From positions 1 through 34,211 of the IMG/VR virus record IMGVR_UViG_3300025889_000465: DNA of 34,211 nt. One strand, written 5' to 3'. The position numbers were made by a program, and so were the translations under genes. Positions 1-33,890 of the stretch are shown here, piece by piece. The notes beneath the pieces are model-generated. The model made no database searches. It saw nothing but the letters and a program-made list of their open reading frames with translations, and was not told the DNA's origin. The stretch is from a virus. Each line of letters opens with the position of its first letter. Position 1 is the stretch's first letter.

Positions 1-63
1 TAACTCGCAGAAGTATTTTCTGAGACCCAAAAAAGCCTGTGCAACCTTCTCTTCTGTTGTCAT
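1..63 (-). CDS. 5' end of an unidentified virion-operon gene (cut by window edge)
   Basis: An ATG at 63-61 opens a frame that runs off the window after 21 codons, beginning MTTEEKVAQAFLGLRKYF. The stop (TAA) of the upstream tail gene lies one base before this ATG, the tight spacing seen elsewhere in this operon, so translational coupling is likely. One copy of the recurring GGGnCTCAGA motif (19-28) falls inside it. Too little is visible to assign a function; by position it should be a tail or virion protein. Confidence 0.6.
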   Translation of the reverse strand, partial: MTTEEKVAQAFLGLRKYFCEL

Positions 64-64
64 A

Positions 65-868
65 TTAGCATCCGCAACCGCAGTTCAGTGTTCCAGTTCC
101 ATTACAATCTACAAGCATATCATTGATATCGTTGTAGATATCTTGTGCGATTTCATATTCCGTACATTCAAATGCTTGGCGCATACGATCGTATTCAAAT
201 TTTATAGCAGCGTAGTCCGATTTGCATAAATCATTCAATGCTAACTTACCAATCGCACATTTTAATTCCTCATCACGCAATTGATATGCTGTTACTTGAA
301 CAGGCAAACTATCAATTGTCCAAGTAAAATCATACTGCCACACGCCTTCAGCAAGTGTAACATAAGAAGTCAAATCATATCCATAATTATTAATCCAATA
401 ACTACTAGATACAGGAATTGCACTAAGTGCAGTTTTGTTTGGAGGGGTTATGACAAGATTAATATTGCTAACACGAGCACGAACATCATTGTACGGAGTA
501 AGTGAATGTGTTCCTGTAAGAGTAGCATTGTTCAAATCAAGATAAGGTATCAAACCAGGATAAGTAGGATACAAAGAAAATCGCAAACTATTTGCATCGA
601 CTACATTCACATACAATTTAGTTCCTGTGGTAATAGAAGCCATTCCTGACCCACTACCAAAAGTGTAAGTCACCACTTGACCCATATAAAAACCATGATC
701 GTTCAAGGTTAATATATCCGTACTCACATTGACACCTGTTGTAAAAGTGCGAGCCGTTTCCGCAATCCAACCGCCAGGGTTTGTTACTGCATCGTAATTA
801 CCAGTTGCATCGATAATTCCCATGCTCGTAGCAGTATTTACGACATTAGTTTTGATAGTTAGTGCCAT
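65..868 (-). CDS. putative tail/appendage protein with Cys-rich C-terminus
   Basis: This 267-residue protein lies downstream of the giant internal protein in the virion operon. Residues about 40-100 form a beta-rich module of the type 'LTLNDHGFYMGQVVTYTF ... KLYVNVVDANSLRFSL', a short sandwich seen in many phage tail and virion proteins. A second beta region follows (about 128-195), then a charged helical stretch (about 196-250, including DEELKCAIGKLALNDLC). The protein ends in CNGTGTLNCGCGC, whose closely spaced cysteines could bind metal or form disulfides. No enzymatic motif is visible. The start at 868 is supported by a consensus -7 box four bases upstream and by the adjacent stop of the giant gene at 885. 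The exact role (fibre, adaptor or receptor-binding protein) is inferred from position only. Confidence 0.75.
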   Translation of the reverse strand: MALTIKTNVVNTATSMGIIDATGNYDAVTNPGGWIAETARTFTTGVNVSTDILTLNDHGFYMGQVVTYTFGSGSGMASITTGTKLYVNVVDANSLRFSLYPTYPGLIPYLDLNNATLTGTHSLTPYNDVRARVSNINLVITPPNKTALSAIPVSSSYWINNYGYDLTSYVTLAEGVWQYDFTWTIDSLPVQVTAYQLRDEELKCAIGKLALNDLCKSDYAAIKFEYDRMRQAFECTEYEIAQDIYNDINDMLVDCNGTGTLNCGCGC

Positions 869-872
869 ATCC

Positions 873-903
873 CAAATTTACGAATTATTCTTTAAATTTC
901 AAT
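873..903 (-). promoter_or_regulatory. Bacteroidota-type promoter, probably leaderless
   Basis: On the minus strand ATTG, a 19-nt spacer and TAAATTTG (complement 880-873) match the -33 TTTG / -7 TAnnTTTG pattern with one mismatch. The -7 box ends four bases before the ATG at 868, so transcription would begin at or next to the start codon. The -33 half overlaps the end of the 4044-residue gene. Confidence 0.55.
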
Positions 904-3900
904 TTCTCTTTAGGCAGTCCTTGTAGGATGGGTCCGAGCCCTTCTGCATTAGCCATACGGAGGTATTGTTCCTCTGTAAATACACCATTAGCAAGTCCTT
1001 CTAGTAAAGCTTTACGTTGTATTTCTCTATATTCAACAGTACTCTCTAAATTAGAAAGATTTTTGTTAATAGCATCAACAATACCACCACTTCTTTCATA
1101 AGTCGTAGGATTCATAGGACCATAAAGAATAGTTTCTATTTGCTCTTCTGCAATTTTATAGTATTCTTCATCCTCTAATTCATTTGCTAGTCTCTGCAAG
1201 TTTTGCGTTTGTTCTTGAATCTGCTGTTGGTCATAAGAATTTCTAACAATATCTCCTCGTAACAAAGCAAGTTCTTTTTGGTATTTCAATGGAATATAAA
1301 TAGAAAATTCTCCTTGTGCGTCTTTTGCTTTTAAGTAAGGATCATAGAATCTTGTAAGAACTTGATAGTCTTTACGACTTCCGGTTGCTTCTTGATACAT
1401 ACTAATAAGATTAAAGAGGTTTTCAGTAGCAATTGTACCCAACTTATTTCTCATATAATCCTCTTTGTCAAAGAACTTTGTTGTAGTTGAGATGTATTCT
1501 ATATCAGCATTTTCGTCTTCGCTTGACACCAAATTTTTGAAATTTGAACCACTAGCAATATTTTTCTTAACTCCATAAATCTCACCATTGTACTCAATAA
1601 TATCACCAGGTTTATACGCCTCTTTATTGTCAAATGTTTTAACACTAGAAACAAAACCTTCATATGTACTCATAGAGAAAGGATCAAAACTTGCTTGGAT
1701 ATAAGCAGCAACTCTATCGCTCAATTCGCCAGAACGAACATCCCAAAATGTATTCTTCTTGTATAGTTCTTCCCCGTGAGGCCCAATCTGTGGCACATAA
1801 AACGGAGAGGCAAATGGACTCAAGAACTCACCCTTAGAATTTTTCAAACCAAAAAGAGAAATAGGTGACCTACCTGTCAAAGAGGTCCACAACTTGGCTC
1901 TGAATACACCCATTGCCGCTTCATCTGGTTCCAAATCAGGATAGTAATTTCTCATTGAGTCAACAGTTATACCTTCTGCCTTTTCAACAGCCCCAAATAC
2001 ACCATAGGCCATTGTAGGAACCGTCAATATAGTCTTGCTCAAGTTCAATAAAATATTTTCAAAACCTTGTTCTTTTGATTTTATTGCACTAATTGCGCTT
2101 GCAATGGTCTGAATAAAACTCAAACTAGTAATACCATTTGTAATAGATTCGGCAATCATACTTGTTGTTATTGATGAAAGCATTTCATCTGGCATACCCA
2201 TAACATTTTCATTTGCACGCTCTGTGGCTTTTGCTCCATAATAAAGAGATGAGATATAACTCATAGCAAATCCAACCATTCCCGCATTCACATAGTTAAT
2301 TGTAAAATCACCTTTTTGATAAGTACGACCAGTCACATCTTTACCTGACATCCACTCCAAAAGGTGGGTAATGTTTATTTTTCCTGGAGGTTGGTTTGCA
2401 ATATTGGCCGCACGAGCTGCTTTTCTTTCGTCTGGGTCATCACCATATGGTGCTCCAATCGCACCACTCATCAACAATATACCGATAAAAGCAGCAACTT
2501 GCATTGCTTGGAATGTGTCTACATATCCTTGGGCAACAGCTCTCTGTTGTTCAAAAATACTCTGACGCATTTTTTCTTGTTCCTTCAGCTGATATGGAGT
2601 CAATTCTGCATTTTTATCAAGACCAAACAAGTTTTCATACTCTTCCATCATTGTTGTTAGTTTTGATTGCTGAAGCAAAGCATCAACTAAAGCCCAACCA
2701 GGAACAGTTTTTCTCAATGCCTGAATCATAAAGTTAGGTGGAATACGAGTAAATGGGCTAAACGCAACTCCTCCCGCAGAAGCAGCGGCATTTGCTGCTA
2801 ATTTTAAATTTTCTTTTCCTACTGGTTTCTTTTGGGTTTTGAAGAATATTTTTCTAGCCGTAATCTGTTTTCTTCTTCTTTCGCTAGAAGATCTTCTTTT
2901 ACCAACCCAATCCGTAAGTTTGTTATCATTGGCAAAAATCCTTTTGCTACCTGCACGTTCAGCCATAAAATCAGCATTTTTTCCGGGAGCAGAATTCAAA
3001 CGAATGAATTTTTTAATCTCTGCAGGGTCTGTTATTCCTTGTGAGGCAGCAAAAGAAGCAAGTGCTTCATAATATCCCATTTTGTAGAAAACACGGTCAC
3101 CCGAAAGAGCAATTGATTTACCAACAGCAGTTGGAATATATCCGAATATGCCTCGCAAAAGCGTTGTAGCAGCGGTATATCCCTTTGGATCCATAGTTTC
3201 TAATTTGTACTTACCATTTGCATCTTTTTCATTCAACATCAACAACATTTCATCAAACATATTCGCCCATTCTTCATCTGACATCTTCAAATCTTCTCTT
3301 TTGAAAACATTTTTCATCAATGTCACAAGCATTTTACCGCCAACAACCAATTCGCTCATAGAATCGATTTGATTTTGTCCGTTCAAAAATCCATTCTGAG
3401 AAGTACTAGATTCTGCAATCGTATTTTCTAAAATGTTTCTGATTTGCTGAACACCTTCGTTCCAAGCCAAACTGCGATACAAATTGGAGTCGACATCGGC
3501 CATCGCACCTCTTTTTACTAATTCTGATGCAGCTGACAAATTATCCTTCTGATTCCACACAGCAGTAATTTTGTTTGCAAGTCTTCTGCTCCATCCAAAA
3601 AGTTTAGTGTTGTATCCTTTGTTGGCCAAATACATTTCAAGGTTACCAATAGCACCAATAACAACAGTTCTAAAACTCAACAAAGCAACTGCTTCCATTG
3701 AGGTAAACCATCTTGTGTTGCTTTTTCTTCTAAACTTATCAATTTCAAGTTTCAATGCACGAGCAGCTTGTTCAAATTCAATTTTTGTTTTATCAAAAAT
3801 TTCATATTGGGCATCTGTATATGCACTAGCAGGAGCAATCTGCAAATTGTCAAGTTCAGCATCATATTTTGCTTTGGCTTCTCTGAACAACTGAATCTTT

Positions 3901-6900
3901 TTTCTGATTCCATTTTTCTGAGTAGGTGTTAACTTAAATGCTCGTTTTTGACGAACAATAGCCATTTTTATGTTCTCACCCTTAGCAACTTCTGTTTTAT
4001 AGGTAATGTTCTCTAAACTTCTAAAGATGGCCTCTTCAAAGTTTTGTTGGTTATCAAACAAACCTTTACCCATTCTCAACATACGACCAGCAAGAGACAA
4101 AAGTCGAGCAACATTGATTTGAGTATTGGGATCAACCTCACCACGAGAAATTTGCTTGAAGACGGCTATGTCTTGTTCAATCTGCTTTCTTTTTTCTCTG
4201 ATATCATTAGTGACTTGAAGCAAAGCGAATTCCATTCCGGTTTCCTCAAGAGCCTCGGCCATCATATCTATCATAGCCTCGTTGTCAATAACCCCATTTG
4301 TAAAACCAAACAATCTATTCATTTGGTCGGCCATATCTACCAACTTACGACTACGAGCATCATTTTTGACTTCACGCAAGAAATCACGATTGTACAATTT
4401 ACCTTTTGCTGTTTTGGCCTTTAGTGTTTTCTCGATAGTTTGACGATAGTTTTCACCAAATATGTCATCTAATTCCGATGGTTGGAATCCTTCTTCATAG
4501 AATGCTTTATAGATTTCAAAATCTTCATAGCCTTGTTTTTTAAGTACATCATACATTGATACGGTACTAAGTTGAGGATATTTGCCCAACTCAACTCGTA
4601 TTTTTTCTTGGCGTTTTCTGATTTTGTTTTTATGCTTTCTGATAGTACGAGCAAACTTGTTTACAGCAGCCCTAGACCAATACTCTTCCATTTCTGGAAT
4701 ATATCGTTTGATTTCTCCGGGAGTGTAACCAATTTTCTGTAGTTCGTAATATGCACCTATTCCGCTGAATCCATTACGCAGCAAATCATTCCAGTCGTCT
4801 ATTACATCTTGTCCTGCTACACGACCTTTGTTGATGATTTTGGTAGTATCCTTGATAAGAGGGACAGCATTTTCATTCCAATAACTCTGAGTCCCAATCT
4901 TATACATATTGATATCTTCCTTGGCATCACGATACCAATCAATAGAGCGTTGGATGCTCTGTTGGATATCAAAGCCATTGTAGTTATCACGAACAAAATT
5001 CCATTTGTGGTGATAGATTTGAGGATCAGCTTTTTGTTTTGTTACACTTACTTCACCATTCTTTTTAACCTTATAGGCATCTCCTACAATTGGTTCTGAG
5101 GCCGAATCCCAATCGGGACTAGCAATGAACGAGAATGATCCATCAGCAGCATTGTATTTGATTACTTCATACTCAAAATCCTCTGGCAATTTGCTCTCGG
5201 CATTAATTAGGGCTTGTTGAGGAAGAACATCATTGGCACTCTTATGAACATAAAGTTCACCGCCAATCATTTTGCCTACATCACCTTTGTAACGCTGAGG
5301 AATACCATAGGCTTTAGACTCTTTAACTTTCTCTTCAATTCTTGCCTTATTCTTGATACCGTGGATAGTATTACCATCAACTTTTGCCCCTTCCATTACT
5401 TGACCACGATTATCGGCAAGAATGATGTTTCCAGAGCGAGTTACATTAGCAAAATAGGCTTGAATTTCAGGCACATACCAAGCGGTGGCTTGGTTATTTT
5501 GCCAACTTGTTTCGCCTGCTGTTTTGGTTTCTTTTCCAACACCACGGTCTTTAGGATCCCCTTCGTAGATTTGGAATACAGCAGTACCTTTTGTACCAAC
5601 AGCATTTGCCATATTGGCGATAACACCTTCTCGTGCTTCTGCCTCAGCAATAACATTCAATACGTTTGGAGATACAGCAACATCTGCATTTCCATCACGA
5701 ACCATACTAATTGTTTCCTCGTTTACCTCAGCAGGTTGGTTGAATGGGTCATAAGGGAAATAAGAAATTTCTTTGTTACCCAAAACTTCCTCCAAGGCAG
5801 GAATTGCTTTTTCACTGAGCATCTTCTTGGAAGATTCGTTGATGAACTCGGCAATTTCTCCTTTTTCCAAAAGAGGTTTGATGTTCTGATTGGCGTACTT
5901 TCCACTTCCGATATCGGCAATTACAATGCTATCACCAGGTACGGCTTTCAAGATGTTCAAGAACTTCTTGTCGCTGTAAACACTTGGTAACTTAGCCTTG
6001 TTGATTGAAGTACCAGCAGAACTGATTTCTTGCTGTGGTGTACTCCAAGGTTCAATACGACCCTTGCTCTTAGTTTTTTGGGCAGCTTTTAGTTTTGCCG
6101 TGGTGTCTAAGATTTCTTGCTTTACAAGTTCGACCCCAACGTCACTATGGTCTCGGCCAAACTCTTGATTTCCTCCTGTGTCAAATTTTCTAGTTCCATC
6201 TTGATTTGTTAGTTGTTTATTAATTTCTTTTTCGCTGTAGCCATACGACTTAGCCAATTTCTTAGCGGCTGACTCATAATCAGGCTGCTCATTATCGCTT
6301 GTTTCTTCAGCACCAAGTTCTTCTGTTCTTCCTTTTTGGAATGTTTGATACAATGCTTTTTCAGGATACCAGTTTACGGCTTGCAAGTCAGCAATTGTAA
6401 TGTCCAAACCATATTCATTTTTTAGTTTACTTTGAACTTCATCAAATACACTTATGATGAAATTCCTCTGAGTCCCATTCTTTGGTGCTTCAATTTCTCC
6501 TTTTGTATTCTTGCTAAGAGAATTACCCGCCTTACGAACCTCATCAAGATTTTTACTCTGCTGAAGGATTTCTCGTTTTTCTACTTTGCCGCTGACTTTA
6601 GCAATTTTATCAGATAATTCTGTTGGGCTGTAAGAACGATAGTTTGGAATTAAGCCTTCAAGAATATTTTTTTCTTTTGTGCTTAAAGCCTTCAGCGTTT
6701 CTTTGAGACGATTAGTACCATCTGTAACTTTTGCAGGATCAACATCAATCAATCTTCCAGTCAAGCGACCATATTGACGCATAAACCAACGATCCATTGT
6801 CAATTGGCTAAAATCACCATACAAATTCATAAAGAATCCGTTGCCAATTTTAGGACCAAAAATAGATGCTCCAAATACTACAGTATCTCCATTAAATCCT

Positions 6901-9900
6901 GTTGCTATACTTTGCAAACTACCTTTAGCGTCTCTGTATTTTAATTCACCAGCTTTGAACTTACTAGTCAAGAACTTGATAAACTTGTCCTTTGGTAAGG
7001 TCTTTAGTATCTCATTGGCAAGAACAAAAGTTGATTTGATTCCTGCTGACTGAGTCCCAATCGACCTGCTTTCATCAAATCTTCCGTTGTCTTTAAAATA
7101 GTTATATTGACGATCTGCTTCAATAAAGTTATCAATTACCTTATTACCATTACTTGTTACAGCAACAGCAATTTTAAACATACCAGCAGCAATAGGATCA
7201 GTTTTTATCTCAGGATGAATCAAAGACATAATTTCCATTGCGGCTTTAGTTTTGGCATCATACCAACCCAAAGCATCTGGGAATGATTTCATTGCCACCA
7301 ATGTTTCAAATACATAAGCGTCAACCAAATATGCTTTAAGAGCATCATTTTCCTTTTTAGGATCAAAATTCTCTCCATATTGTTTTTTCAACATTGGAAT
7401 AGAAGAATTGAACCTGTCTTGTAACGCTCTCTTAAACTCCAGATTAGTAGGAATCTCTGACTCACTTGCAAATGCCAAAGCATTTGGAATAGAGTTATTT
7501 ACATCATACAATACAGATGGAATATTTACTTTTACACCATCAATGGTAAGTTCTTGTGTATTCTTATCAAATTCAACAGTTCGTGCTTTGTTACGAATTT
7601 GCTGAATATCTTTTGTTTGCTCTTGCTGTGATTTGGGTTTCAGATAATCTTTAGGCTGGAACCAATCTTGCTTAAATAACCAACTTTGATATGCTCGTGG
7701 AGTAGTGGTAAACCATTCTCCTTTATATTTACCAAATGGGAGTTGGAAGTCATCCTCTGTAGATTCATATACAGGTTCTTCTTCCACACGACCTTTGCTC
7801 TTGAATTTTTCAAAAACTATTTGCTGGTACGATACTCCATTGTTTTTAAAGTCTTTAAAATAACCTAAAGAAGAATCTACTACTGCAATATAAGGTTGCC
7901 CATCTTGACCTTTAGCCCAATATAGATTTTCACCATGCAAATCCAAAAGCGTAAGACCCAAAGATTTCTTATAAGCATCAACATATCCACCTTCATCTAT
8001 ATCTACATCAAATCCTAAACTTTTAATAAAAGTCTCAATATCATTATCTGATACTTCCACGGCATCAGGCCATGGTTCGTGGAATGGTTGTTTGGTTACT
8101 ATTCCAAATTCAGACCCTGTGTCAGGATGATAAAAATCTGTAAACCCTAATATTTCTACAGCACTTTCTGGAAAAATAGAATTTGTTATTTGGGTCTTAA
8201 TCAAAAAATCTAAAGTATTCCAATGCATTTTGTTTGGATGAGTAAGTTTATAAACATACTTACTATCGCTACCAATATATACTACAGACTCAGTACCTTT
8301 CCCTAATCTTTGTAAGCCATTTTTATCAAATACATCATATGGGTTTTCAAGATATACATTGTTTTCTTTTGACCAATTTTGAAAAAACTGATCAATAACA
8401 TCGGTATCTATACGTTCATAACCTTCTACTTCTTTGTTTTCATATCCGAATTTTCCGTTTTTTTGAATTTCGGCATCGGGATTCCATCCCATAACTTCAA
8501 GAATTCTTGTGGCTTCATTGGCAATCTCTTTTCCCACGATGCCAGTAAGTTCTTGCTCCGTGACTGGTTTTCTGGATTCTTCCACGGAAGTTCCAATTTC
8601 TTCGATTGGTCTTTCATTTGTATATTGTTTTAAGTTTTCGTTTATTGTTTTTGGTTTTCTAACCCAAGTTTCTCCGACTTTTTCAAATCCAGCAACAGCA
8701 AAGTATTCAGCATCATCATAATAATGCATTACCTCTCTTTCATATGTTGTATCTGTATTCTGAAAAAATAATTTTTTTGGATTAATAACAATTGTTTTAT
8801 CATTCTCATCGGCAAAAGAAACTAAATCATCTACAAATTTTTTTGCTCCAATTATTCCTGCAAAGTCATATTCACCGATTTTATATTTAATGTCTCCCAA
8901 AGAAATTTTTCCGTTTTCATCTTCATTATATTTAATTGAGAGTTTTGATTCTTTATATTTATCCTCAATAGAACTGAAAAATTCTTCTGTTGGTTTAGCC
9001 TCACTTTTTACTTCAGGTTGAGGTTCTCTGTACATTGCCTCTTTAGTAGTGAAATCTTTATTTGCACCTTTGTTTTCAACAAATCCAAACTGCTTATAAA
9101 AATTCACTAGCCTTGAAACACTTGTACCACCAAAATCTGTAGATGGTGTCAAAACTATTCTTCTGTTGTTTGCATCAGCATAAGCAATAATCTCTTGCAT
9201 TACTTGCTGACCAACACCTTGACCCCTACTATCTTCTGGAACAACTATACGACTCAAACTCAAATCGCCTTTTGTTTGATTCCCCATCAAATCTAAAGTT
9301 ATTCCATATTTCAGTTCCATTGCCGTTGAAAAATCAACAGGGCTAATTTCTGTTAGTCTAGCTTTACTTCTTACTTCTGCTCCTGGTTGTGCAGTTGTTG
9401 GTTGCTCAGTTACAGGTGCTGCTTCTTTTTTAGAAACTTTAGCCTGTTTAATGCCTTCACCCTTACGGATAGATTCAGCAATAGTATTGAAAAAGTCTAA
9501 CACCTCTTGGGTATCCTTAAACTCTTGGAACTTAATACCTGCTTCTTTACCGATTGATTTAATTATTTTATTAATGATGGCAAGCAAACGTTGGAAGAAA
9601 CCTGGGTCTTCTTGTGCGATTGTCTCCGCATTCTTACTAATCATAGCAGTGAATTCAGTAATCCATTCTTCTGCTTGATCTGTTGTGCTATAGGCATTAG
9701 CAAATCGATTCAAATATGCACCGCCTTGCTGTGTTATATGCTTTTCTATTTTGTCTTTAAACTCTTTGAAAACTTCTGAGAACTCGGTATCATACTTTGT
9801 ATTGATATCATTAAGTGTCTGAGACCATTCGGCATCCGTTCCAGTGTGTGCTTTCTTGGCACGAGCAATTTCAGCATCTCTGCCCTCGTGATTAAAGAAT

Positions 9901-12900
9901 TTATTATAGAGAATCCCGTGAGTTACCTCGTGAGCAATATCAGCATAATTGCCCTTTTCCAAATCAATTTGAATTTCGATTTGACGTGTACCATCTAAAT
10001 TCTCTACAATAGAAAAGTTTCCTTTGCGATTTGCACGCTCACCAATATCCTTCATTTTTTGACGGAATGAATCTGTGGTATGCAAAACTATGTTTACACC
10101 AGGAAGTACGCTCTGAAGCGTGCTGTTGGCGTTATTTGCAATAGCGATGAGTGTAGCAGCATTCTTACGCTCACGAGGATTCTTGATATTAGCAAGGAAC
10201 TCTTGGGTTGCTTCCGATTGCAAATCAGCAGAACCCAATACAGCATTCTTATTATTTCCAGTTACACTTTCAAATGTTGCTGTCTTGGGAGTTATATCAC
10301 TGATTCTTTGGTCAAACTCTTGGTTGATAGCCGCAACCTTCTGTTCGTATTCGGCTTGCTGCTCTTGACTCTGAGGCCCTTCTGCACCATATAGTTCTTC
10401 CAATGCTTGTTTACGCTGTTCATTAAGAGTATTGATTTGGTCCTCTACATTACCTGCTGGTTCGTATGGAACGTGTTCACTAGACTCTGCTGAAACAACA
10501 GCATCATTTGTTTGACGAGTTTGTTTATCTGCTATTTTATCCTCAACAATTTTAAGAACTTGTTCAACTTCTTTTTTCTTTTCCTCTGTGAGAACTTCTC
10601 CATACAAAGCAGCTTGTGTTGGATCTTCTAAGATTTGACGCAATTTTGCATTTGTTGCAGTCAAGATTTTTAAGTTAGCAGCACCAGAAAAACCAGCCGA
10701 TGTTATTCCAATAACAAGCAACTGATCCAAAGCAGATTCCATATCGTGCCCAAATGCATCTCTAAAGTTCTTATCTATGTCAATACCGTTATCTATCATA
10801 ACTTGTAGATACTGACCTGCGTATTCTTGAACAGTTTCTGCTGTACCACCAGCGATAGTTCTCACCAAGAATTCTGGGATTCTTGATCCACTAGCAAATA
10901 GTTTCTCCAAGTTTAGAGCATTGACTGCCATTTGTCCGACTGCTTCACCCGCACCTGTAGCAAATCCTTGTCCTGCCGCTTGAAAGATTGCACCTTGGCG
11001 AATCATATCTGATGTATTGGCAAATACCATTTCACCAGTCTTGCCGTATTTGGTCTTCAAGAGATTGTTAAATCCTTTTGCCCAACGCATAGCGGTGATT
11101 TCTGGAACTAGCATATTACCCAATGCAATTTGTACCATAGCATCGGCAAGCATACCTGCACTACCTGAAATTGTTTCTGCTACACTTGCACTAGCGGCAG
11201 AACGCAAACCACTTGGAACCGTATAACCAGATTGCTCCAATGCATCCAATACGCTGTTTCTTGTATTAAATTCAGAATTTGCATCTTCTGTGCTTAGACC
11301 CGGAACAAATTCTCTGCCGATACTTTCAGCGGCAATTCCTAAATTTTTGACAACAGATTCCATAAGACTCTCTGTTTGTTTACGGAGAGCCACATTTTCA
11401 TTCAGCATTACGGCACGATTCAAACCATACAGTTCACGCATAACGCTATATAGTTGACTATTATAGTCTTCCATTTTACGTTTGTACATTTCTGCATCAA
11501 CCTGTCTGCCATCAGGTAGATAAATAAGACCACTTCCTTGACTAGCAATACTAGCCATTACGCTTCTTGAAATAGCATTCCAAGACCCTTCTTCAGGAAT
11601 ATCAAGCCCATCTTCAGCCATCTTGTTGATGATGAATGAGCGTTGAGCCATCAACTCATCTCTTCTTTTAACAAGAACATCTTTGGGCTGATCGCTGTAT
11701 TTTATTTGAAAACTTTCGTTTTCTTTTTGGATATCTTGAACTTTCTTTCTATTGTCTTGAATGCGTGTATCTACAAACTCACCTGTACGCCAATCGTATA
11801 GATTGTTTGGGTTGTCTCTAAGTTCGCTCAATTGGTTCTGCAAAGATTCCAATTGCCTATTTATATCAGTAACAGTTCCTGTAACACCATACTCAAGCAT
11901 CTTCTTTCTCAAGATTTCCATCTGCTGAACGATGGCATACGCTTCTTTCTCAGAGCCTTGCAACATATCAAATGAGCGATTATGCCAATAATTGATATAT
12001 GCTTGGTTTGCCAATCCTTGGTTGCCATACTGAGCCAACAAGGTTTTCTTCAGATTATCACTTTCGGTCTTTGCTCCTACTGCAACATATTGTTGCTTTA
12101 AGCGCAAGATTTCATTATCTGCTTGTTCTTCGGTGAACCCACTAGCAATAAGGTTATCTTTAATGGAGTTCTCATCAATGTAGTTGTAGTTATTTCGACC
12201 ATCCAACAAATTTTGTTGAGGGTTTCTAACATCGACTTTCTGACCTGTGCCTTTAGAGAAGATTTCAAGTTTATCTCCTTCAAACAAAGCACGGCCAATG
12301 GCATACTCGTCTAAATCAAATGAAATACCTTCAGGCGTTCTATATTCATATTGACCAGCATCAATCCCCTTGAAAAGTGAATTATCATCTTGCTTGAATG
12401 CGATGATTTGCTCATCTTCTTCGGCTTGGCTCTTAGCCTTCATATCGGCTACAATAGCCTTACCTTTATCAATTGCTTCAAAATCAATAGTTTGAATCTG
12501 AGGCATATCGGAAGCCCATTGTCTTTCTTGTTCAAGTTGACGAGATTGGGCTAATTCCTCCTGAGTAACAACCTTTTTCTGCGGAGGAGTATAAATGTTT
12601 CTGTTTTGGTAAGCCTCTTCCTGGGCTCTTTGAATAGCCTCTGGAGCTTGAAGTGCTTTCTTTTGTTCAGGCGTAGTTGGGAAACGCTCTTCCCACGTCT
12701 GACCCTTGATAGGACCAGTGGCTGTAGGCAATAAAGTTTTACGAGGCGCAAACGGATTTACAGGACCAGGTTGCTCACCTCCATCCGATGGCGAAGTAAA
12801 TAAAGAATCTGCGCTTTCGTCTTTTTTTTTTAAAGTTGAAAGAAAGTCATCTTTGCTTACTTGAGCCTCTACACCTAACTTGTTATAAAATGCCTCTTGC

Positions 12901-20768: not shown

Positions 20769-21559
20769 TAGGGATTTTCAATTATATCTTGTGCTGCCAT
20801 TTGTCGAGTCATTGGGTCTTTAGTCTGAGCCCCAAAACTCAACACACATTCATCCATCAAACGATAGAGAAACTTGCTTGAATAGTAATCTTCCAAAGTT
20901 GTTGATGTATTTGTAACATCTATAATCAAAGGTGCAGTGCGAACGTAATCTACTTTCACAGATATCAAATCAGTAGACGGGCTAACTTTGATAGATTTCG
21001 GAGTACTCGTTCCATCGTTCTGTGGTTCAAAACGAGGAGTAGTTTTACTTGCCTTATGAAAAGGGCTTCCTTTACGATCAGATTGCTGTTGTTTTACATC
21101 ACGAACAATAACTCGCTTGTATGTCCCTGTAGACAAACCAGAAGTGCCCAAATCAAATGTATCTCCTTTTACCTTTGCAACCGTGTATGAGGTAGCACCA
21201 AATTTAACCGAGTCTCCTTTACGAAGGGTATGATTTGCAGAAGTCAATGTAGTTCCACTAACCGCACTAACACTAAAAGATTCCTCGTATTGTGCTGTCA
21301 TATACATAATATGCATATAATTGGGCAGAAGAGTATTGATTTTAATAATACCCGCAACAGGAATAACGCTCTGTTCCTTAATTAAGAAAGGCATCATCTC
21401 ATCAGCATCAACCTCTAAAGACTCTTTACGCCAATACTTATCTACCAAACGCTGCATTGTCTCTTTGATGAGTGCATTTGCCTTTGCGTTATCTAGATAT
21501 GCCGAATAAGCCTTATCAATTTTTTGCTGTAAGTATGACCAAAATTGTGCACCAGTCAT
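20768..21559 (-). CDS. connector/adaptor-like protein with inserted beta domain
   Basis: This 263-residue protein has the helical N-terminus (SYLQQKIDKAYSAYLDNAKA) and C-terminus (LEDYYSSKFLYRLMDECVLS) seen in head-tail connectors of this kind. Between them, residues about 93-152 form a separate beta module (SVSAVSGTTLTSANHTLRKG, VKFGATSYTVAKVKGDTFDL), similar in type to modules in the capsid and tail proteins of this phage. It is first of the three connector genes. An exact TATATTTG box lies five bases upstream of the ATG and a terminator lies just before that. The GGGnCTCAGA copy is at complement 20833-20824 (GAQT). Confidence 0.55.
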   Translation of the reverse strand: MTGAQFWSYLQQKIDKAYSAYLDNAKANALIKETMQRLVDKYWRKESLEVDADEMMPFLIKEQSVIPVAGIIKINTLLPNYMHIMYMTAQYEESFSVSAVSGTTLTSANHTLRKGDSVKFGATSYTVAKVKGDTFDLGTSGLSTGTYKRVIVRDVKQQQSDRKGSPFHKASKTTPRFEPQNDGTSTPKSIKVSPSTDLISVKVDYVRTAPLIIDVTNTSTTLEDYYSSKFLYRLMDECVLSFGAQTKDPMTRQMAAQDIIENP

Positions 21560-21613: not shown

Positions 21614-21619
21614 CTTCTA

Positions 21620-25669: not shown

Positions 25670-25683
25670 CAACTTTATTTTGA

Positions 25684-27852
25684 TTATTGCATTTGTTGTT
25701 GTATTTGTGCTTGTTGGCCTTGCATTTCTTGCTTTGCCAATTGTGCATCTGCTCCAACTTCTGCTCTATAGTTTGCACCTTGTTCTTTCATTGCCTGTTG
25801 GTCTTGTTGGTGAGCCATTTGCTGTTCCATTTGTGCTTGTTGCATCATTTGCATCATAGCCTGTTGTTTTTCAGCATCACGCTTCTTCTTGTTCAATGTA
25901 TACTCCAACTGATTTTCAAGTTCAGTATATGTTTTACATTTTTCAATTTGAAGATACTCCAAGAAATCCAACACTTGATTCTGCATAGCAGCTTGAGCAA
26001 TACCCAACAAACGCTCACGAGCAGAATCATCAATGAAGTCTTTCACTTTTAAATACACACCAAGTTCTTCAATCTGAAATTCCTTGGTTAATTTCAAATA
26101 TTCTTTGCCTCTAGTTCCAACTACAGGAATAGTTGTTTCGGGTTCGTCAATCAAAGTCACTTTAAATTGATTAACAGCAAACGATAATTGCTTTTCAATA
26201 AACTTAATAAAACCTTGGTATAGGTAAGTAGTTCCTAAGTTAGACTGAGCAATAGTACCTGCTTGAGTTTTTGCTCCTACATATCCTGATTGCTGACCCA
26301 ATGCAATTTTTGGAATGCTTACGATTTCTTCCATCAATCGTTCTTCTTCTTGACGAAGATTAACAAGCAATTGAACATTAGAGTCTAGAGTCATATCAAC
26401 TACTTCAACCAAGCGAGCATCTTGTCCATTTACAAATTCTTCTCCAGTTGCGGATCCGTCTGTAATGTGAATACCCATACGCTCAAAATCAGAAATAACA
26501 TCTTTGGCGGTAGAAGTACCTAATTTTTGTTTGTTAATCAGATATACTTTACCTTTTGCACGATTCATCATTTTGGTAATTTCATTGGTGATGTAATCGA
26601 TACGATCTTGGTGTTGGTGCAAACGAGCTACTACAGATCTGTTCTCACCCATAACCATATTTGGCAAAAAGACTTGCAATGGCAATATGACATCGCCTGG
26701 GTTATCTGTTTTACGAACAATGTTTGTGGCTTCTTCATAATCTACAACATATTTGTTGCCGATGAGTGTAGCCTTGTAGATTGTTTTTGTCCAAAACTCT
26801 CCTTTACGACCATTGCGAATTTTTGAGTAATGCGTATTTCCAAATTTATCTTTGGATTTCTCATAACCCAAATCTTTCATTCCAACCCAATATCCAGTAA
26901 CACAAGCCAAAGTAGGCAGATTGTTAACATTGAATGCCCAGTTAGTTGCGTATGGGTGAGTAGTCAAATCTAACAACTGATACAAATTGTTAGTATTGAT
27001 TTCTTTCAGTTCTTTTATCTCCTCTGTGGTCAATGAGTCTTGATAACGCTCAATGATATCGGTAATGTTCAACCAATCAATTTTTCCTACAAAACGGGCC
27101 TCAGAATTAAAGTCATCATCTTTCGCCCTATCAATAATCAGATTATGAGGAAGGATAATATCAAAATACTGTTTTCCGTTTTCGATTCTGTTTTCAACAC
27201 CAACATAACCACCCAATAGGGTATACAAGAATGCTTGTTTGTATTTCTCCTTGAAATTGTTACGATTGAGAATGTCTTCTGCCATTTTAAGAGCCAACTC
27301 TTCAATTTGCTCACGATAGTCATTCTCCATGTATCGATATACTTCTTCAGGCGTTTCAAATTGATTACCTTGTTCGCCCATAGGACGGAAATCAATTCCA
27401 TACCTATTCATAGCTTGGACTAACTCTGGAGCGTTGAATCGCAACATAGCATCTTCAAGCATTTGAGTTTTTCTATTGATAGCAGCTTGAGATTGAGATT
27501 TAACACTTGGGTCAATGTTTTCAATCATTTTGATGGCATTACCAACCATATAGTCAACCAAAGAAGTTACTTTCTGACCATTAATCCAAACCGTTGGCAA
27601 ATCGCAATTGTTTTGGTCCTGGGTTGTGTAGTAATAATCTTTGTTGTATTGACGGCCCAAATAGTAGGTGAACATACGCACCACTTCATCAATAGGATTC
27701 TCCAGGTCAGATTGTTTGCGAACACGAGAGATACGATCATGACGCTTGTTGAAGTGCGACATAACGAACTGCAAGTTCTGCTTGTACCAAACACGAGTTT
27801 TCTCACTTTCTGGCAAAAACTGGTTTGGCTGGTTTGTAATAGTAAACGCCAT
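25684..27852 (-). CDS. portal protein
   Basis: This 722-residue protein is the first gene of the leftward virion operon. The N-terminal half has the portal pattern: RMFTYYLGRQYNKDYYYT, VTSLVDYMVGNAIKMIENID, AEDILNRNNFKEKYKQAFLY then LLGGYVGVEN, and DRAKDDDFNSEARFVGKIDW, the latter recalling portal proteins of crAss-like podoviruses. Residues about 410-520 (HQHQDRIDYITNEITKMMNR, ISDFERMGIHITDG) fit the wing/stem part, and LRQEEERLMEEIVSIPKIAL precedes the stem helix. The last about 70 residues are Met/Gln-rich (QQAMMQMMQQAQMEQQMAHQ), probably a barrel-like or disordered extension. One exact GGGCCTCAGA lies on the opposite strand here (27096-27105), the only copy in antisense orientation. The start has a TAAATTTG box five bases upstream. 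Confidence 0.85.
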   Translation of the reverse strand: MAFTITNQPNQFLPESEKTRVWYKQNLQFVMSHFNKRHDRISRVRKQSDLENPIDEVVRMFTYYLGRQYNKDYYYTTQDQNNCDLPTVWINGQKVTSLVDYMVGNAIKMIENIDPSVKSQSQAAINRKTQMLEDAMLRFNAPELVQAMNRYGIDFRPMGEQGNQFETPEEVYRYMENDYREQIEELALKMAEDILNRNNFKEKYKQAFLYTLLGGYVGVENRIENGKQYFDIILPHNLIIDRAKDDDFNSEARFVGKIDWLNITDIIERYQDSLTTEEIKELKEINTNNLYQLLDLTTHPYATNWAFNVNNLPTLACVTGYWVGMKDLGYEKSKDKFGNTHYSKIRNGRKGEFWTKTIYKATLIGNKYVVDYEEATNIVRKTDNPGDVILPLQVFLPNMVMGENRSVVARLHQHQDRIDYITNEITKMMNRAKGKVYLINKQKLGTSTAKDVISDFERMGIHITDGSATGEEFVNGQDARLVEVVDMTLDSNVQLLVNLRQEEERLMEEIVSIPKIALGQQSGYVGAKTQAGTIAQSNLGTTYLYQGFIKFIEKQLSFAVNQFKVTLIDEPETTIPVVGTRGKEYLKLTKEFQIEELGVYLKVKDFIDDSARERLLGIAQAAMQNQVLDFLEYLQIEKCKTYTELENQLEYTLNKKKRDAEKQQAMMQMMQQAQMEQQMAHQQDQQAMKEQGANYRAEVGADAQLAKQEMQGQQAQIQQQMQ

Positions 27853-27857
27853 TTGTA

Positions 27858-28161: not shown

Positions 28162-28566
28162 TTAAATCGTGTTTTTCTTTTTTGCAACAACATAGTGACT
28201 TGGTTCGTAAGATTTCATAAAGAACTCAATGAATTCAGCACCTTTGGCCACCAAAATTTTTTCAACAACTAAACGAAAGATGTACTTGTCATTGAATTTG
28301 TATTTCTTTTGTAGGATGTCTACGAATGGTTTTACGACATTGTCTGCGTCTGAGGCCATATTGGACAAGCCAACCATTAGATTAAGTTCTATAGGACCGT
28401 CTATGGTTATTTTGTGAGACTTGAGTTTTAGGAGAACTTCTTTCTCGTAGGCAGAGTATTCTTTTGTCTTGAATCGTTTGCCTTGCCAGCATTGGTTTAC
28501 TGATAGCGGTTTAATTTCGACTTTGTTTGAAAAGAGCAGGATATTCTCGTTTGATAAGTTCAGCAT
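28162..28566 (-). CDS. rusA: RusA-family Holliday junction resolvase
   Basis: This 134-residue protein has the RusA plan. An N-terminal strand leads into IKPLSVNQCWQGKRFKTKEY (about 18-37). The catalytic acidic core is SDADNVVKPFVDIL (D73, D75, N76, K79, D83), then FNDKYIFRLVVEK with D93. RusA-type enzymes cut Holliday junctions as dimers and in phages resolve branched DNA before packaging. The length is close to the family norm (about 120-140). The first 19 codons overlap the end of the upstream gene by 56 bases, so a slightly later start cannot be excluded, although no other good start codon is seen. It is the last gene of a three-gene leftward unit that ends at the terminator near 27.9 kb. 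Confidence 0.85.
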   Translation of the reverse strand: MLNLSNENILLFSNKVEIKPLSVNQCWQGKRFKTKEYSAYEKEVLLKLKSHKITIDGPIELNLMVGLSNMASDADNVVKPFVDILQKKYKFNDKYIFRLVVEKILVAKGAEFIEFFMKSYEPSHYVVAKKKNTI

Positions 28567-29166: not shown

Positions 29167-29175
29167 AATTACATA

Positions 29176-29206: not shown

Positions 29207-29223
29207 ATATTCTATTATATTCG
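29193..29223 (+). promoter_or_regulatory. rightward promoter of the divergent pair
   Basis: TTTG (29193-29196), a 19-nt spacer and TATATTCG (29216-29223) match the Bacteroidota promoter with one mismatch. The ATG of the SSB-like gene lies 21 bases downstream with an A-rich leader (TAGTTAAAAAC). This is the only divergent gene boundary in the window. Confidence 0.5.
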
Positions 29224-29244
29224 CATTGTTTAATAGTTAAAAAC

Positions 29245-29826
29245 ATGGCTTTAAAAGAAACACAAGGAAAGAAAACTTATCTCACTATTCGTGACGGTAA
29301 GATCGCTCGCAAACAAGGCGAGGAATGGACACTTTACAATTCCGTAGAAGGTAAGATTGTAGGTTTAAGTACACGAGAAGGCAAGTTTGGCACAGATTTG
29401 TGCATTGACTTGATGGATGATGAATTGTACCAGTTGCAAATCAAAATTAAAGGCGGGGAATCGGCAAAGCAAAGTTCTTACTTTATTGCTTTTGCTCATT
29501 GTTCTCCTAATTTGGATTTGAATCAGAAGGTAGAATTTATTCCCTCTTTGAAAATTGAGAATGACCGCAAGCGTGCTGCTTTGTTTTTGAAACAAGGCGG
29601 TGAGGTTATTAAGTGGGCTTTTAAAAAGGGTGATGGTATGCCGGATCCCGAAGAAGTTTACAACAAAAAGGGCGAACTTGTTTCTGTAGATTGGAGTGAG
29701 GTTGAAACATTCCGTATAGACAAAGTAAACGAGTTGGTTAATAAATTGGGTAAACCTGTAGAAAAAGACATTGTTGCTGATTTTGCACACAATGCCAATG
29801 TTGAAGACGATGATTTGCCCTTCTAA
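29245..29826 (+). CDS. single-stranded DNA-binding protein-like
   Basis: This 193-residue protein has a beta-rich body (YLTIRDGKIARKQGEEWTLY, CIDLMDDELYQLQIKIKGGE) compatible with an OB fold. Its acidic C-terminal tip, EDDDLPF, is nearly the classical SSB tail DDDIPF that recruits recombination and replication partners. No Walker motif or nuclease residues are seen. The gene heads the rightward cluster and is followed by an exonuclease, as in phage recombination modules. The length and lack of a long Gly/Gln linker differ from bacterial SSB, so it belongs to a phage-specific type. The stop overlaps the next start (TAATG). Confidence 0.7.
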   Translation: MALKETQGKKTYLTIRDGKIARKQGEEWTLYNSVEGKIVGLSTREGKFGTDLCIDLMDDELYQLQIKIKGGESAKQSSYFIAFAHCSPNLDLNQKVEFIPSLKIENDRKRAALFLKQGGEVIKWAFKKGDGMPDPEEVYNKKGELVSVDWSEVETFRIDKVNELVNKLGKPVEKDIVADFAHNANVEDDDLPF

Positions 29827-30065
29827 TGGCAAGAGGAATTAACAATTCTGTTTTGGCTGATAAGATTGCACAAAAAGTTGAACCTGTCCATATGAAACAC
29901 TATGGGCAGGAACAACTGTCTATTATCCGTCAGTCAAGTTTGAAGGCGGCAATCCAATTCACGGATTCTGTTATGCCTCGTTTAGATAGAAAATTTTCTT
30001 TGGAAGAGTTACAGAAATTCACTTTAGAAACAGCAGAAGTTTTTGAGCAATGGGTCTTGAGATAA
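29826..30065 (+). CDS. small unidentified protein between SSB-like protein and exonuclease
   Basis: This 79-residue, mostly helical protein begins ARGINNSVLADKIAQKVEPV and ends SLEELQKFTLETAEVFEQWV. It starts on the last base of the SSB-like gene stop and overlaps the exonuclease gene by 16 bases, so it is tightly coupled to both. No motif is recognised. A helper or DNA-binding role in the same recombination module is a guess from position. Confidence 0.6.
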   Translation: MARGINNSVLADKIAQKVEPVHMKHYGQEQLSIIRQSSLKAAIQFTDSVMPRLDRKFSLEELQKFTLETAEVFEQWVLR

Positions 30066-31033
30066 TCCAAATAGATAAGGATAAGTCGTATCAAGAGTGG
30101 TTGAACTTCCGTGAGAACGGATTAGGAGCTAGTGAGATTGGTACGCTTATGGGTGTTAACTCTTTCAAGAGCGCAGCCGAATTGTATTACCAAAAAATAG
30201 GTGCATTTCCACAAAAACAAGTGCAAAATATGCCAATGTTTATGGGAACTATCTTGGAACAGACTGTTGCCAATATTTTTGAATATTGGGAAGAGGATGA
30301 AGCCACAATGATTTCTAACCACTCCCAGGGTAAGAAGGTGCGAACCTTGTATGAGCCTATTGGGTATATTGTTAACGAGAAGTATCCTCATTTGTTTTTC
30401 TCTCCAGACCGTTTGCAGATCTGTGCAAGTAATCTCCGAATCCGAAATGGTCATTTGAATTTGAATAATGTTGAAGCCATTATTGAGATTAAGACTATTA
30501 GCGGTTGGGCAAGTAAGCAATGGCAGGGTGGGTTACCGCCCTCCTACTACTTGCAATTGCAAACCTATCTAATGGGTCTCGGAGTAGAGTACGGATACAT
30601 CGTAGCATTAGAAGACGGAAGAACAATAAAGGTTCACAAGTTTGAGAGAGACGAAGAGATTATTGCCTCCATAGAAACGGTAACTGCTCAATTTTGGGAG
30701 CGAGTCTTACTTGGTAGGGAATACATGGCCAAGGGTGAGGACTACGATCAGTTTGCTCCGGATCCCGATGGAACGGAAGCATACGCAGAGTTCTTGAACG
30801 AAAAGTTCGCCAATCCCGAAGAGAATACTATTCGCAGCAATGAGGACATAGATGAATGGATTGCTTTGTACAAGGAGAGAAGTTCACAGATTACAAATTT
30901 GGATGATGAAAGAAGAGAAGCTGCAAACTTTATCAAGAGTCATATGGGTAATAATGTAATTTTGGAATCTAATGTCGCAAAAGTAACTTGGAGACCCAAT
31001 GCCAAAGGAACAAGAATATTCCGTATCGTATAG
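30050..31033 (+). CDS. YqaJ/lambda-exonuclease-type recombination nuclease
   Basis: This 327-residue protein carries the YqaJ signature. WLNFRENGLGASEIGTLMG (about 17-35) is followed by MFMGTILEQTVANIFEYW with E70, then FFSPDRL with D120, IIEIKT with the E146-x-K148 pair, and SYYLQLQTYLMGL with Q169/Q171. These residues form the two-metal PD-(D/E)XK centre of 5'-3' exonucleases that make single strands for annealing-type recombination. The C-terminal third (about 245-327, DDERREAANFIKSHMG) is helical and may carry protein contacts. The start overlaps the upstream gene by 16 bases. No annealase (RecT/Erf/Redbeta type) is visible in the window; the SSB-like protein may be its partner. Confidence 0.88.
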   Translation: MGLEIIQIDKDKSYQEWLNFRENGLGASEIGTLMGVNSFKSAAELYYQKIGAFPQKQVQNMPMFMGTILEQTVANIFEYWEEDEATMISNHSQGKKVRTLYEPIGYIVNEKYPHLFFSPDRLQICASNLRIRNGHLNLNNVEAIIEIKTISGWASKQWQGGLPPSYYLQLQTYLMGLGVEYGYIVALEDGRTIKVHKFERDEEIIASIETVTAQFWERVLLGREYMAKGEDYDQFAPDPDGTEAYAEFLNEKFANPEENTIRSNEDIDEWIALYKERSSQITNLDDERREAANFIKSHMGNNVILESNVAKVTWRPNAKGTRIFRIV

Positions 31034-31038
31034 ATCCA

Positions 31039-31329
31039 ATGGCAAAGAAGTCGAAGGATATGGATTGGTACAGGGCCATGTGGGAGTCTCGTACTCACAC
31101 TTGCCAGGAGTGTGGGTTACATCTTCCACGCTTCAGTCCGATGTTCATCTCGCATATAGTATCAAAGGGGAGTTATCCGGGTCTCAGACACCACAAGGAC
31201 AACTTCATGATTTATTGCATGCTTTGTCATCAGCAATGGGAATTTGGGAATCGGAAGACGATGAAGACTTACCAGGAGGCAATGGAGATAGCGGAGAGGA
31301 TTAAAAGAGAATATTATGAATCACGGTAG
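31039..31329 (+). CDS. HNH-type zinc-finger endonuclease-like protein
   Basis: This 96-residue protein has two Cys pairs around an HNH-like core: C22-x2-C25, ISHIVSKGSYPGLRHHKDNF (H39, N55) and C60-x2-C63-H64, followed by QQWEFGN and a helix. The spacing matches HNH nucleases in which zinc binding supports a beta-beta-alpha metal site; phage recombination endonucleases of the NinG type are built the same way. The ATG at 31039, five bases after the exonuclease stop, is preferred over upstream in-frame codons, which lie within that gene. It overlaps the methyltransferase start by 14 bases. A GGGTCTCAGA copy lies at 31179-31188. Confidence 0.75.
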   Translation: MAKKSKDMDWYRAMWESRTHTCQECGLHLPRFSPMFISHIVSKGSYPGLRHHKDNFMIYCMLCHQQWEFGNRKTMKTYQEAMEIAERIKREYYESR

Positions 31330-32449: not shown

Positions 32450-32831
32450 AGCCAGGCAGTACTTGCGTTATATGAAGACTTTCGTGTGGGCTATGAGGCA
32501 AGATTTATTGTCTTTAACACAAGTCAACAGAAACGGGACTATGAAAAATTATCCTGTTGATGCAAATACTGTGGAAGATGCTATTAATTTTGTAGAGACT
32601 GGCGATTGTCTTCGAGATACGAGCGTATCTATGACAGATGTATACGCCATAATGGAAGCAGTTAAACATAAAACAAATAATGACACCGAAGATAGAAACA
32701 CACAGACTGGAGATGGCAGTGAAACAGATTGGGTTTCAGATGACACATCAGCAAGCGGATCAGATAATGCTATTCGTAGTGAAGGAGATTCTAAGAGAGT
32801 TAAGAGAAATAGAAAAAGGAAGAATGATTGA
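32433..32831 (+). CDS. small unidentified protein (132 residues), possibly shorter
   Basis: The ATG at 32433 lies inside the methyltransferase end (17-base overlap), a coupling seen throughout this cluster. Residues 1-80 look like an ordered helical protein (KIEARQYLRYMKTFVWAMRQ, ANTVEDAINFVETGDCLRD). From about residue 81 the sequence becomes a polar, low-complexity run (NTQTGDGSETDWVSDDTSAS) that ends in a basic tail. That second part coincides with another open frame (32680-32901), so it may simply be read-through of the neighbour's DNA. Function unknown. Confidence 0.55.
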   Translation: MNSKIEARQYLRYMKTFVWAMRQDLLSLTQVNRNGTMKNYPVDANTVEDAINFVETGDCLRDTSVSMTDVYAIMEAVKHKTNNDTEDRNTQTGDGSETDWVSDDTSASGSDNAIRSEGDSKRVKRNRKRKND

Positions 32832-32901
32832 CTTAGAATCAATTGTTCGTTATTGGGAGGATGTCAAGAAAGAAATAGAATATGAAAATAGAAATACATA
32901 A
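32680..32901 (+). CDS. small helical protein overlapping the previous gene (73 residues)
   Basis: The frame is shifted by +1 relative to the preceding gene and overlaps it by 152 bases. It encodes a coherent amphipathic helical protein (MAVKQIGFQMTHQQADQIML, VVKEILRELREIEKGRMIDL, ESIVRYWEDVKKEIEYEN). An alternative ATG at 32713 would give 62 residues and begin directly with MAVKQIG. Sequence quality suggests this frame, not the upstream one, is the selected one in the shared stretch. Function unknown. Confidence 0.55.
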   Translation: MTPKIETHRLEMAVKQIGFQMTHQQADQIMLFVVKEILRELREIEKGRMIDLESIVRYWEDVKKEIEYENRNT

Positions 32902-33019
32902 ACAGTGGGGCTCTTTGTATCTGATCCCCACAATTGCCATTACTCACACTAAGGAGTTATTCGGTCACTACGAAATCTCCATAGGTTTTTTAAACAGGTG
33001 GTTAGTCATAACGCTATGA
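32882..33019 (+). CDS. very small unidentified protein (45 residues)
   Basis: An ATG at 32882, inside the end of the preceding frame (20-base overlap), opens a 45-codon gene: MKIEIHKQWGSLYLIPTIAI, then KELFGHYEISIGFLNRWLVI and a final TL. It fills the space between two genes exactly and its stop overlaps the next ATG (ATGA). Alternating hydrophobic residues suggest a small beta sheet; the phrase 'WGSLYLIPTIAI...HYEISIGFLNRWLVI' has the look of a compact folded phage microprotein. Function unknown. Confidence 0.6.
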   Translation: MKIEIHKQWGSLYLIPTIAITHTKELFGHYEISIGFLNRWLVITL

Positions 33020-33261
33020 GAAGTTTGGCCATACTTGGGTTTTTCGTTTTTTTGGTGGCAGCAGCCTTGTACAATGCAAAAGACAAGGAAATAGTTTTAT
33101 ACCAATACCCTTTGGTAGTAACGGAGGTTAAAGTAATACCAGCAGGTAAGATTAGCACATTGCAATTTGATCCTGTGTACGAGTATAAGGTTGGGACTCA
33201 GATAGCCTATCGTACCAATAAGCGTATGAAGGTAGGAGACACTATATACATAAACAAATAA
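33016..33261 (+). CDS. small single-span membrane protein upstream of the endolysin (81 residues)
   Basis: The ATG at 33016 overlaps the stop of the preceding gene (ATGA); an upstream GTG at 32998 is less likely. Residues 3-20 (SLAILGFFVFLVAAALYN) form one transmembrane helix with few positive charges before it. The remaining 60 residues form a small polar beta-type domain (PLVVTEVKVIPAGKISTLQF) likely outside the cytoplasm. Twelve bases further the endolysin begins, so an accessory lysis role (pinholin, spanin-like or envelope factor) is possible, but no holin or spanin signature is recognised. A GGGACTCAGA copy lies at 33193-33202. Confidence 0.6.
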   Translation: MRSLAILGFFVFLVAAALYNAKDKEIVLYQYPLVVTEVKVIPAGKISTLQFDPVYEYKVGTQIAYRTNKRMKVGDTIYINK

Positions 33262-33272
33262 TAAATTAAATT

Positions 33273-33890
33273 ATGAGCTTAAAAGCATTACAATCTAAAA
33301 TAGGGGTAACAGCCGATGGAGCATTCGGACCTGGAACATTGAAAGCCGCAATGGCTTATTACAAGATGACCCCAGAGCGTGCCGCACATTTCTTTGCACA
33401 GACTGCACATGAAACAGGCGGATTTAAAGTATTTAGCGAGAACCTTAATTACTCAGCCGATGGACTGAATAAGATATTCCCTAAGTATTTCAAGAACGCA
33501 GGTCGTGATGCTACAGCTTATGCTCGTAACCCCGAAAAGATTGCGAATGTAGTATATGCCTCTCGTATGGGTAATGGAGACACTGCTAGCGGTGAGGGGT
33601 GGAAGTACCGTGGTCGTGGTGCTGTGCAATTGACAGGTAAGCAGAACTACCAGAACTTTGCTAACCACTTGAATGACCAGACCATTATGACTAATCCTGA
33701 TCGGGTCTCAGAAGAACTGTCTTTTGAATCCGCCATCTTCTTCTTCGATAGAAACAAGTTATGGGACATAGCAGACAAGGGGGTCAATAAGGACACCATC
33801 TTGGCTATGACTAAACGAATCAATGGAGGAACACACGGATTAGCCGATAGAGAAGAGAAGACACTGAAGTATTACTCCTGGTTAAAATGA
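33273..33890 (+). CDS. GH19-family endolysin (lysozyme/chitinase-like)
   Basis: This 205-residue protein has glycoside hydrolase family 19 hallmarks: AAHFFAQTAHETGGF with catalytic E47, SENLNYSADGL with second acid E56, PEKIANVVYASRMGNGD (substrate loop), YRGRGAVQLTGKQNYQNF, and a C-terminal TKRINGGTHGLADRE. The first 28 residues (LQSKIGVTADGAFGPGTLKA) resemble a very short peptidoglycan-binding motif. Family 19 phage enzymes cut the glycan backbone of peptidoglycan at lysis. There is no signal peptide, so release should need a holin or membrane helper, perhaps the small membrane protein upstream. The gene overlaps the following ATG by four bases. A GGGTCTCAGA copy lies at 33703-33712. Confidence 0.9.
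   Translation: MSLKALQSKIGVTADGAFGPGTLKAAMAYYKMTPERAAHFFAQTAHETGGFKVFSENLNYSADGLNKIFPKYFKNAGRDATAYARNPEKIANVVYASRMGNGDTASGEGWKYRGRGAVQLTGKQNYQNFANHLNDQTIMTNPDRVSEELSFESAIFFFDRNKLWDIADKGVNKDTILAMTKRINGGTHGLADREEKTLKYYSWLK

Follow-up and report, generated by a model that had tools for sequence, protein, structure and literature searches.

The uncultivated phages of the clade described here carry a short asymmetric word, GGGNCTCAGA, that is under selection as DNA and, close to an inferred cos site, nearly always faces outward, toward the nearest genome end, on both sides of it. On balance, GGGNCTCAGA is probably a polar Chi-like DNA signal in linear phages of ~65–72 kb with inferred cos ends. 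The starting point is a window of 34,211 bases, meaning the whole stretch of viral DNA analyzed (positions 1 to 34,211 of IMG/VR record IMGVR_UViG_3300025889_000465), to which related records were added.

Copies of the word in the window

The window contains 12 exact copies of GGGNCTCAGA, against a mean of 0.09 (maximum 1) in 100 dinucleotide shuffles, and 22 copies when one mismatch is allowed, against 3.8 expected. No word of the same gapped form is more frequent in the window than GGG.CTCAGA, and a control word, the 10-mer reversed, has 0 copies there. On the minus strand, exact copies are found at 19–28 (GGGTCTCAGA, in sense orientation in an ORF beginning at ~63 and truncated by the window edge), 4886–4895 and 6467–6476 (both GGGACTCAGA), 10370–10379 (GGGCCTCAGA), 14029–14038 (GGGTCTCAGA), 15877–15886 (GGGACTCAGA), 18983–18992 (GGGCCTCAGA) and 20824–20833 (GGGGCTCAGA). 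The plus strand carries a copy antisense to the portal gene at 27096–27105 (GGGCCTCAGA), kept exactly in 20/57 aligned relatives, two outward-facing copies in the right arm at 31179–31188 (GGGTCTCAGA) and 33193–33202 (GGGACTCAGA), and a copy within the endolysin gene at 33703–33712 (GGGTCTCAGA). This endolysin shares 76.6% identity with its counterpart in a Flavobacterium sp. LMO8 phage (Flavobacterium phage immuto), which has no word at the position matching 33703–33712.

All 12 exact copies named in a preliminary description of this DNA are present where it placed them. Its list of one-mismatch or spacing variants reflects a real excess, but two of them begin one base earlier than given (at 28349 and 32178), and the copies do occupy all three codon phases, as it said, but with phase 0 dominating (7/10). 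The even spacing that it described, 1.4–1.8 kb between 14.0 and 20.8 kb, is marginal in the window only and is not general in the clade.

Gene content and likely host

On its minus strand, the window encodes the portal protein (25684–27852) and a RusA-like Holliday junction resolvase (28162–28566). The plus strand encodes an SSB-like protein (29245–29826), with a predicted OB-type β fold and a C-terminal DDDLPF tip, and a YqaJ/RecE-like recombination exonuclease (30050–31033) that is a candidate phage-encoded reader of the word. Both proteins are found in all 15 long records; the fold matches of the SSB-like protein are weak, with none below E 0.001. Further products of the window are a C5 methyltransferase, a GH19 endolysin and, from the minus strand (885–13019), a polyvalent protein of 4044 aa that includes a GNAT-like domain (~aa 1250–1316) and a PolyVal kinase domain (aa 1545–1703). 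At the right edge, a non-coding region starts with positions 34070–34211; its counterpart in relatives contains the E1 box and the inferred cos end, and the window contig stops just short of these.

Other records of the clade add to this inventory. A 606-aa conserved protein with terminase-large-like motifs (HVFIDE) is encoded at L093:16771–18591 (minus strand) and was not recognized by PHROGs or Pfam. The same locus encodes a stand-alone DnaA domain-IV protein (L093:8627–9019, plus strand) with homologues in seven other long records, and relative G010 carries a tmRNA (tag GNVELSPMAFEDAMSFVSNEYKVAA) and a tRNA-Ala (L089:4798–5144 and 5494–5567, plus strand).

Promoters of the TAnnTTTG type are enriched upstream of genes, the two-box pattern occurring 89 times in sense and 15 times in antisense orientation. 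Together with the endolysin, which resembles that of a Flavobacterium phage, these promoters make a host in the Bacteroidota likely, perhaps in the Flavobacteriia.

The word is selected as DNA

Relatives were found with the window portal protein, itself a distant relative of portals from Flavobacterium and crAss-like phages. The search returned 57 IMG/VR loci (66–83% identity, 725 kb), in which the word is the commonest 10-mer of its own form, with 191 copies, and reversed control words do not occur. It is present in every long record of the clade, has a density of 0.23 per kb in the clade, persists in relatives down to 54% portal identity, and reaches ~13–18 copies per near-complete genome, leaving out a sister group described below.

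Codon use falls far short of explaining these numbers. When the window genes were codon-shuffled, 0.22 sense and 0.035 antisense copies were expected, against 10 and 1 observed. Synonymous-codon shuffles of 14 long records predicted ~4 coding copies, against 151 seen (38-fold), with sense copies numbering 115 against 2.9 predicted and antisense copies 36 against 1.1. Intergenic DNA makes up 5% of the total, yet holds 10% of the copies. In aligned portals, variable loops gain and lose sites, and the encoded amino acids change to fit. Mismatches are tolerated unevenly along the word: positions 2, 3, 6 and 7 are nearly invariant and positions 1, 8 and 10 accept substitutions, several of which, at tolerant positions, are still 10- to 50-fold enriched. 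A longer consensus, TTGGGNCTCAGA, allows changes at positions 1 and 8–10. A codon-shuffled null and a count in related phages were the checks that the preliminary description had proposed for its claim that protein selection does not account for the copies; with shuffled counts far below those observed, enrichment across the 57 loci, the intergenic share and the mismatch pattern, DNA-level selection on the word is strongly supported.

Strand bias and gene direction

The preliminary description also emphasized that copies lie on the coding strand. They do so at a sense:antisense ratio of 3.2:1, but codon constraint alone predicts 2.6:1, so that position on the coding strand is no evidence of function and the bias is mostly a by-product of codon constraint. 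The same null rules out strand bias as a sign of an RNA or transcription role, and a promoter element was rejected as well, there being one orthologous intergenic site only.

Nor does the orientation of the copies switch with transcription at 29.2 kb, as had been proposed. The last minus-strand copy in the window begins at 20824 and the first plus-strand copy at 27096, inside the minus-strand portal gene, and the switch therefore precedes the change in transcription direction. Pointing right, to the inferred cos end, the copy at 27096 belongs to the outward-facing right arm. Once the long records are turned to a common portal direction, each of the 18 intergenic copies falls on the portal strand regardless of how the neighboring genes run, and these copies are often antisense to both flanking genes. 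Where gene direction and genome end conflict, the motif follows the end.

An inferred cos end in the E1 region

In relatives, a non-coding region bearing the E1 box precedes the early operon. The 67,969-bp record G041 starts and ends in this region, and two contigs that are 99.99–100% identical to it (L131 and L132) read through the join, revealing nine bases, TAGATGCCC, between the right end of G041 and its left start. The same join is found in L128, at 85–90% DNA identity to G041. A short stretch missing at a fixed place is what end repair of a 3′ cohesive overhang would leave, which points to a cos site with 9-nt 3′ ends; a fixed end combined with an overhang missing from an end-repaired contig was found in this one genome. 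The E1 region is probably the physical genome end, the direct end evidence coming from G041 together with the read-through contigs, and the position of cos in the other genomes was placed by homology of the E1 box. A conserved dyad, approximately TGTACACNTTCGNNCGAATGTGTACA, lies at the aligned position in most main-clade genomes. This dyad and runs of C surround the E1 box, for example after it at L118:11533–11640, and may mark a cos or terminase site; the cos regions scanned matched no Rfam family.

Outward polarity at the genome ends

All relatives were oriented by the portal protein, with the portal start taken as zero. Nearly every distinct site from +4 to +36 kb is on the portal strand. 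Between −6 and −2 kb the sites lie on the non-portal strand (23:1), and from −6 to −12 kb they return to the portal strand (27:7), against the local gene direction. The strand switch coincides with the conserved ~1-kb non-coding region that holds the E1 box. When the inferred cos is taken as zero instead, the motif on either side of it faces outward, toward the nearest end. Every record with an early-side copy has its first one outward, mostly 0.7–1.8 kb from cos; intergenic copies near the inferred cos are outward in 11/11 cases, and variants at position 8 in 13:0.

Counting distinct sites as independent, the two arms differ with a Fisher p of 1.5e-6, and the early-side antisense excess has p = 3e-11 against the codon null. 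Within plus-strand genes alone, arm A carries 11 plus to 0 minus copies and arm B, the early side, 5 plus to 15 minus. Adding arm terms improves a gene-strand model (likelihood-ratio p = 1.7e-6, on the same counting), in which gene strand matters too. In an unbiased screen of all words for outward orientation in both arms, most of the resulting lists were headed by fragments of this word. In genomes held out from these counts and recovered by a capsid-protein search, a first look near E1 found outward copies in 14/14 cases on the portal side, including two copies in a locus without a detected E1, and in 5/5 on the early side.

The pattern has exceptions and a limited reach. The first arm-A site is inward in G014, G001, G005, L054 and L145, and sister-group records contain some inward sites of the original word out to 7 kb. 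A second polarity switch lies ~7 kb from one end rather than at mid-genome, and the interior 8–22 kb from the early end is of mixed orientation. Polarity is strong within ~7 kb of each end and, deeper, either mixed or inseparable from gene direction. Near the ends, the copies are arranged such that an enzyme entering there would meet the word 3′ side first.

Drift of the word and its presence elsewhere

A sister lineage (G050–G054, G060 and G053; loci L215–L234 and L243–L245) was recovered in a later capsid-protein scan. The original word is scarce in it, at 0.07 per kb, and has no clear polarity on the early side. In its place the lineage carries a shifted word, GGGGTNTCAG, which occurs 27 times (reversed control, 2) and is outward in a ratio of 6:0 in the early arm and 4:3 in the opposite arm. 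Both GGGNCTCAGA and GGGGTNTCAG are present in G041 and in two intermediate genomes. This drift of the word along the lineage is what would be expected if a recognizing protein is matched to it. The sister lineage is also enriched in further words, such as TGGCGGTGG.

In the sequences examined outside the clade the word is rare. Eleven other Bacteroidota phages (0.8 Mb) contain 1 copy of GGGNCTCAG. A genome scan for a host carrying the word returned only phage contigs contaminating a Sphingomonadaceae MAG, RFPL01 (Sphingomonadaceae WB4_6_108). This MAG has 35 copies, mostly on small phage contigs, with only a few and no enrichment on its chromosomal contigs. The phage contigs of the clade in it (L058, L059 and L144–L150) are apparently a binning contamination. 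In a search for a two-copy pattern, the matches inspected outside the clade were clustered repeats or unrelated contigs. The unrelated 62-kb phage G048 has the word only in two tail-fiber genes with GSQS repeats (L160:4028–14291, plus strand); it shares with G041 a 91%-identical endolysin-like gene, which suggests a common host. Literature searches with the literal 10-mer gave only unrelated papers among the matches listed.

Discussion

Among the roles that the preliminary description had listed for the word, a Chi-like signal is the best fit, favored by the exonuclease and the SSB-like protein, by a density of 0.23 copies per kb and by the predicted layout; nicking and RNA processing or pausing are unsupported, as both strands carry copies and those in intergenic and early-side positions are mostly antisense. 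We infer that cos lies at the switch region in all members, that the reader enters at an end, and what the biological outcome would be. An enzyme would enter at either physical end, exposed by packaging cleavage of a concatemer or present on linear infecting DNA, and would unwind or resect inward, meeting the word 3′ side first, with the G-rich sequence on the 3′-ended strand. It would then halt destructive degradation and leave a 3′ single strand for recombination, as at Chi with RecBCD. Candidate readers are host AddAB or RecBCD, or the phage YqaJ exonuclease and SSB.

A more specific version, in which the phage encodes its own Chi system, is tentative and on present evidence rather doubtful. 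A YqaJ-type exonuclease or one of its partners, for instance the SSB-like protein, would read a lineage-specific word that co-evolves with it; resection would stop at the word on the 3′-ended strand, and the phage would set the length of the recombinogenic tail without host RecBCD or AddAB. That the word differs by drift between sister lineages and is absent or nearly so from the other Bacteroidota phages is compatible with this version.

RecBCD reads Chi from the 3′ side, and lambda presents an end at cos (PMC2082072). Lambdoid phages that have a recombinase and no RecBCD inhibitor hold Chi toward cos, for which Bobay et al. (2013, PMC3784561) suggested free-end protection; the same article gives ~0.2 Chi per kb for recombinase-negative phages and describes avoidance of Chi by phages with RecBCD inhibitors, and a term search of its text found no orientation analysis. 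As with Chi in lambdoid phages, the word studied here is short, asymmetric and G-rich, occurs ~0.2 times per kb and is strongly over-represented; as in the Chi-rich lambdoids, it is found in phages with their own recombinase and is enriched toward the packaging site. In arrangement, with its 3′ side facing the end, it matches the orientation in which Chi acts. The sequence differs from Chi, is longer, with nine fixed bases where known Chi words have 5–8, and drifts within the clade, and in contrast to the work on Chi-rich lambdoids the polarity was mapped on both sides of the inferred cos. A second parallel comes from the left cos end of lambda, where the motif GGCGA makes lambda exonuclease pause (Perkins et al., reviewed in PMC7496540, with the speculation that digestion from that end is thereby slowed). 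The likeness is a strand-specific, sequence-dependent stop of a phage 5′–3′ exonuclease near cos; the difference is that lambda has one motif at one end, against ~13–18 copies per genome here, known from sequence.

The conserved non-coding region might instead be a replication origin, or serve as an origin as well as an end, the word being replication-polar and lying on the leading-strand template of departing forks. The region is indeed non-coding, conserved and located ahead of the early operon, with polarity symmetric about it. A circular origin, however, does not explain why G041 ends there with a nine-base gap relative to the read-through contigs, and the reversion of polarity ~7 kb to one side, near the portal, would make the arms very unequal. 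Bacterial Chi and KOPS also point away from the origin, opposite to the direction seen here, and we regard an origin as unlikely. A still less probable role is that of sites nicked on one strand by a phage endonuclease. The nick sites of T5, phiKMV-like phages and phage tf are likewise short asymmetric words repeated across coding sequence, but all on one strand, and the copy number and spacing here resemble those of tf, in which 14 nick sites in 46 kb, with an asymmetric word, keep to one strand whatever the gene direction (PMC3517423). Sites in the present clade, however, occupy both strands and flip at the inferred cos, that is, at the genome end, and no nickase candidate was identified.

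Binding by the phage stand-alone DnaA domain-IV protein seems very unlikely. Relatives encode such a DnaA_C-domain protein (PF08299, E 1.5e-15), matching DnaA chains in the PDB, and TGGGNCTCA resembles the DnaA box TTATNCACA in layout; against this, the recognition-helix residues vary widely among genomes that have an identical word, which weakens the protein as a reader, G041 has the word but its syntenic gene lacks similarity to DnaA_C proteins, and the outward polarity would be unexplained. A signal acting in RNA or transcription from the coding strand (processing, pausing, antitermination or a promoter) is, if anything, slightly harder to credit. It could draw on the sense bias in the window and on one orthologous intergenic copy that adjoins a −7-like box, TATATTTG, but codon constraint predicts that bias, intergenic copies follow the genome strand, and most copies on the early side are antisense. 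Chance, or a side effect of codon use, which would account for the modest sense bias and nothing more, is refuted by the 38-fold excess over synonymous shuffles and by polarity by position, and its probability is negligible.

Few bacterial groups have known Chi-type words, and no report of one for the Bacteroidota was found in the literature searched. The route taken here, from a polar word to the genome ends, relies on sequence only, and the end polarity makes the proposal that Chi near cos guards phage ends (PMC3784561) testable in a new system. If the Chi-like word is read by the host, these phages would disclose a Bacteroidota Chi sequence and how cos phages survive degradation from their ends; if it is read by the phage, it would be a self-encoded Chi.
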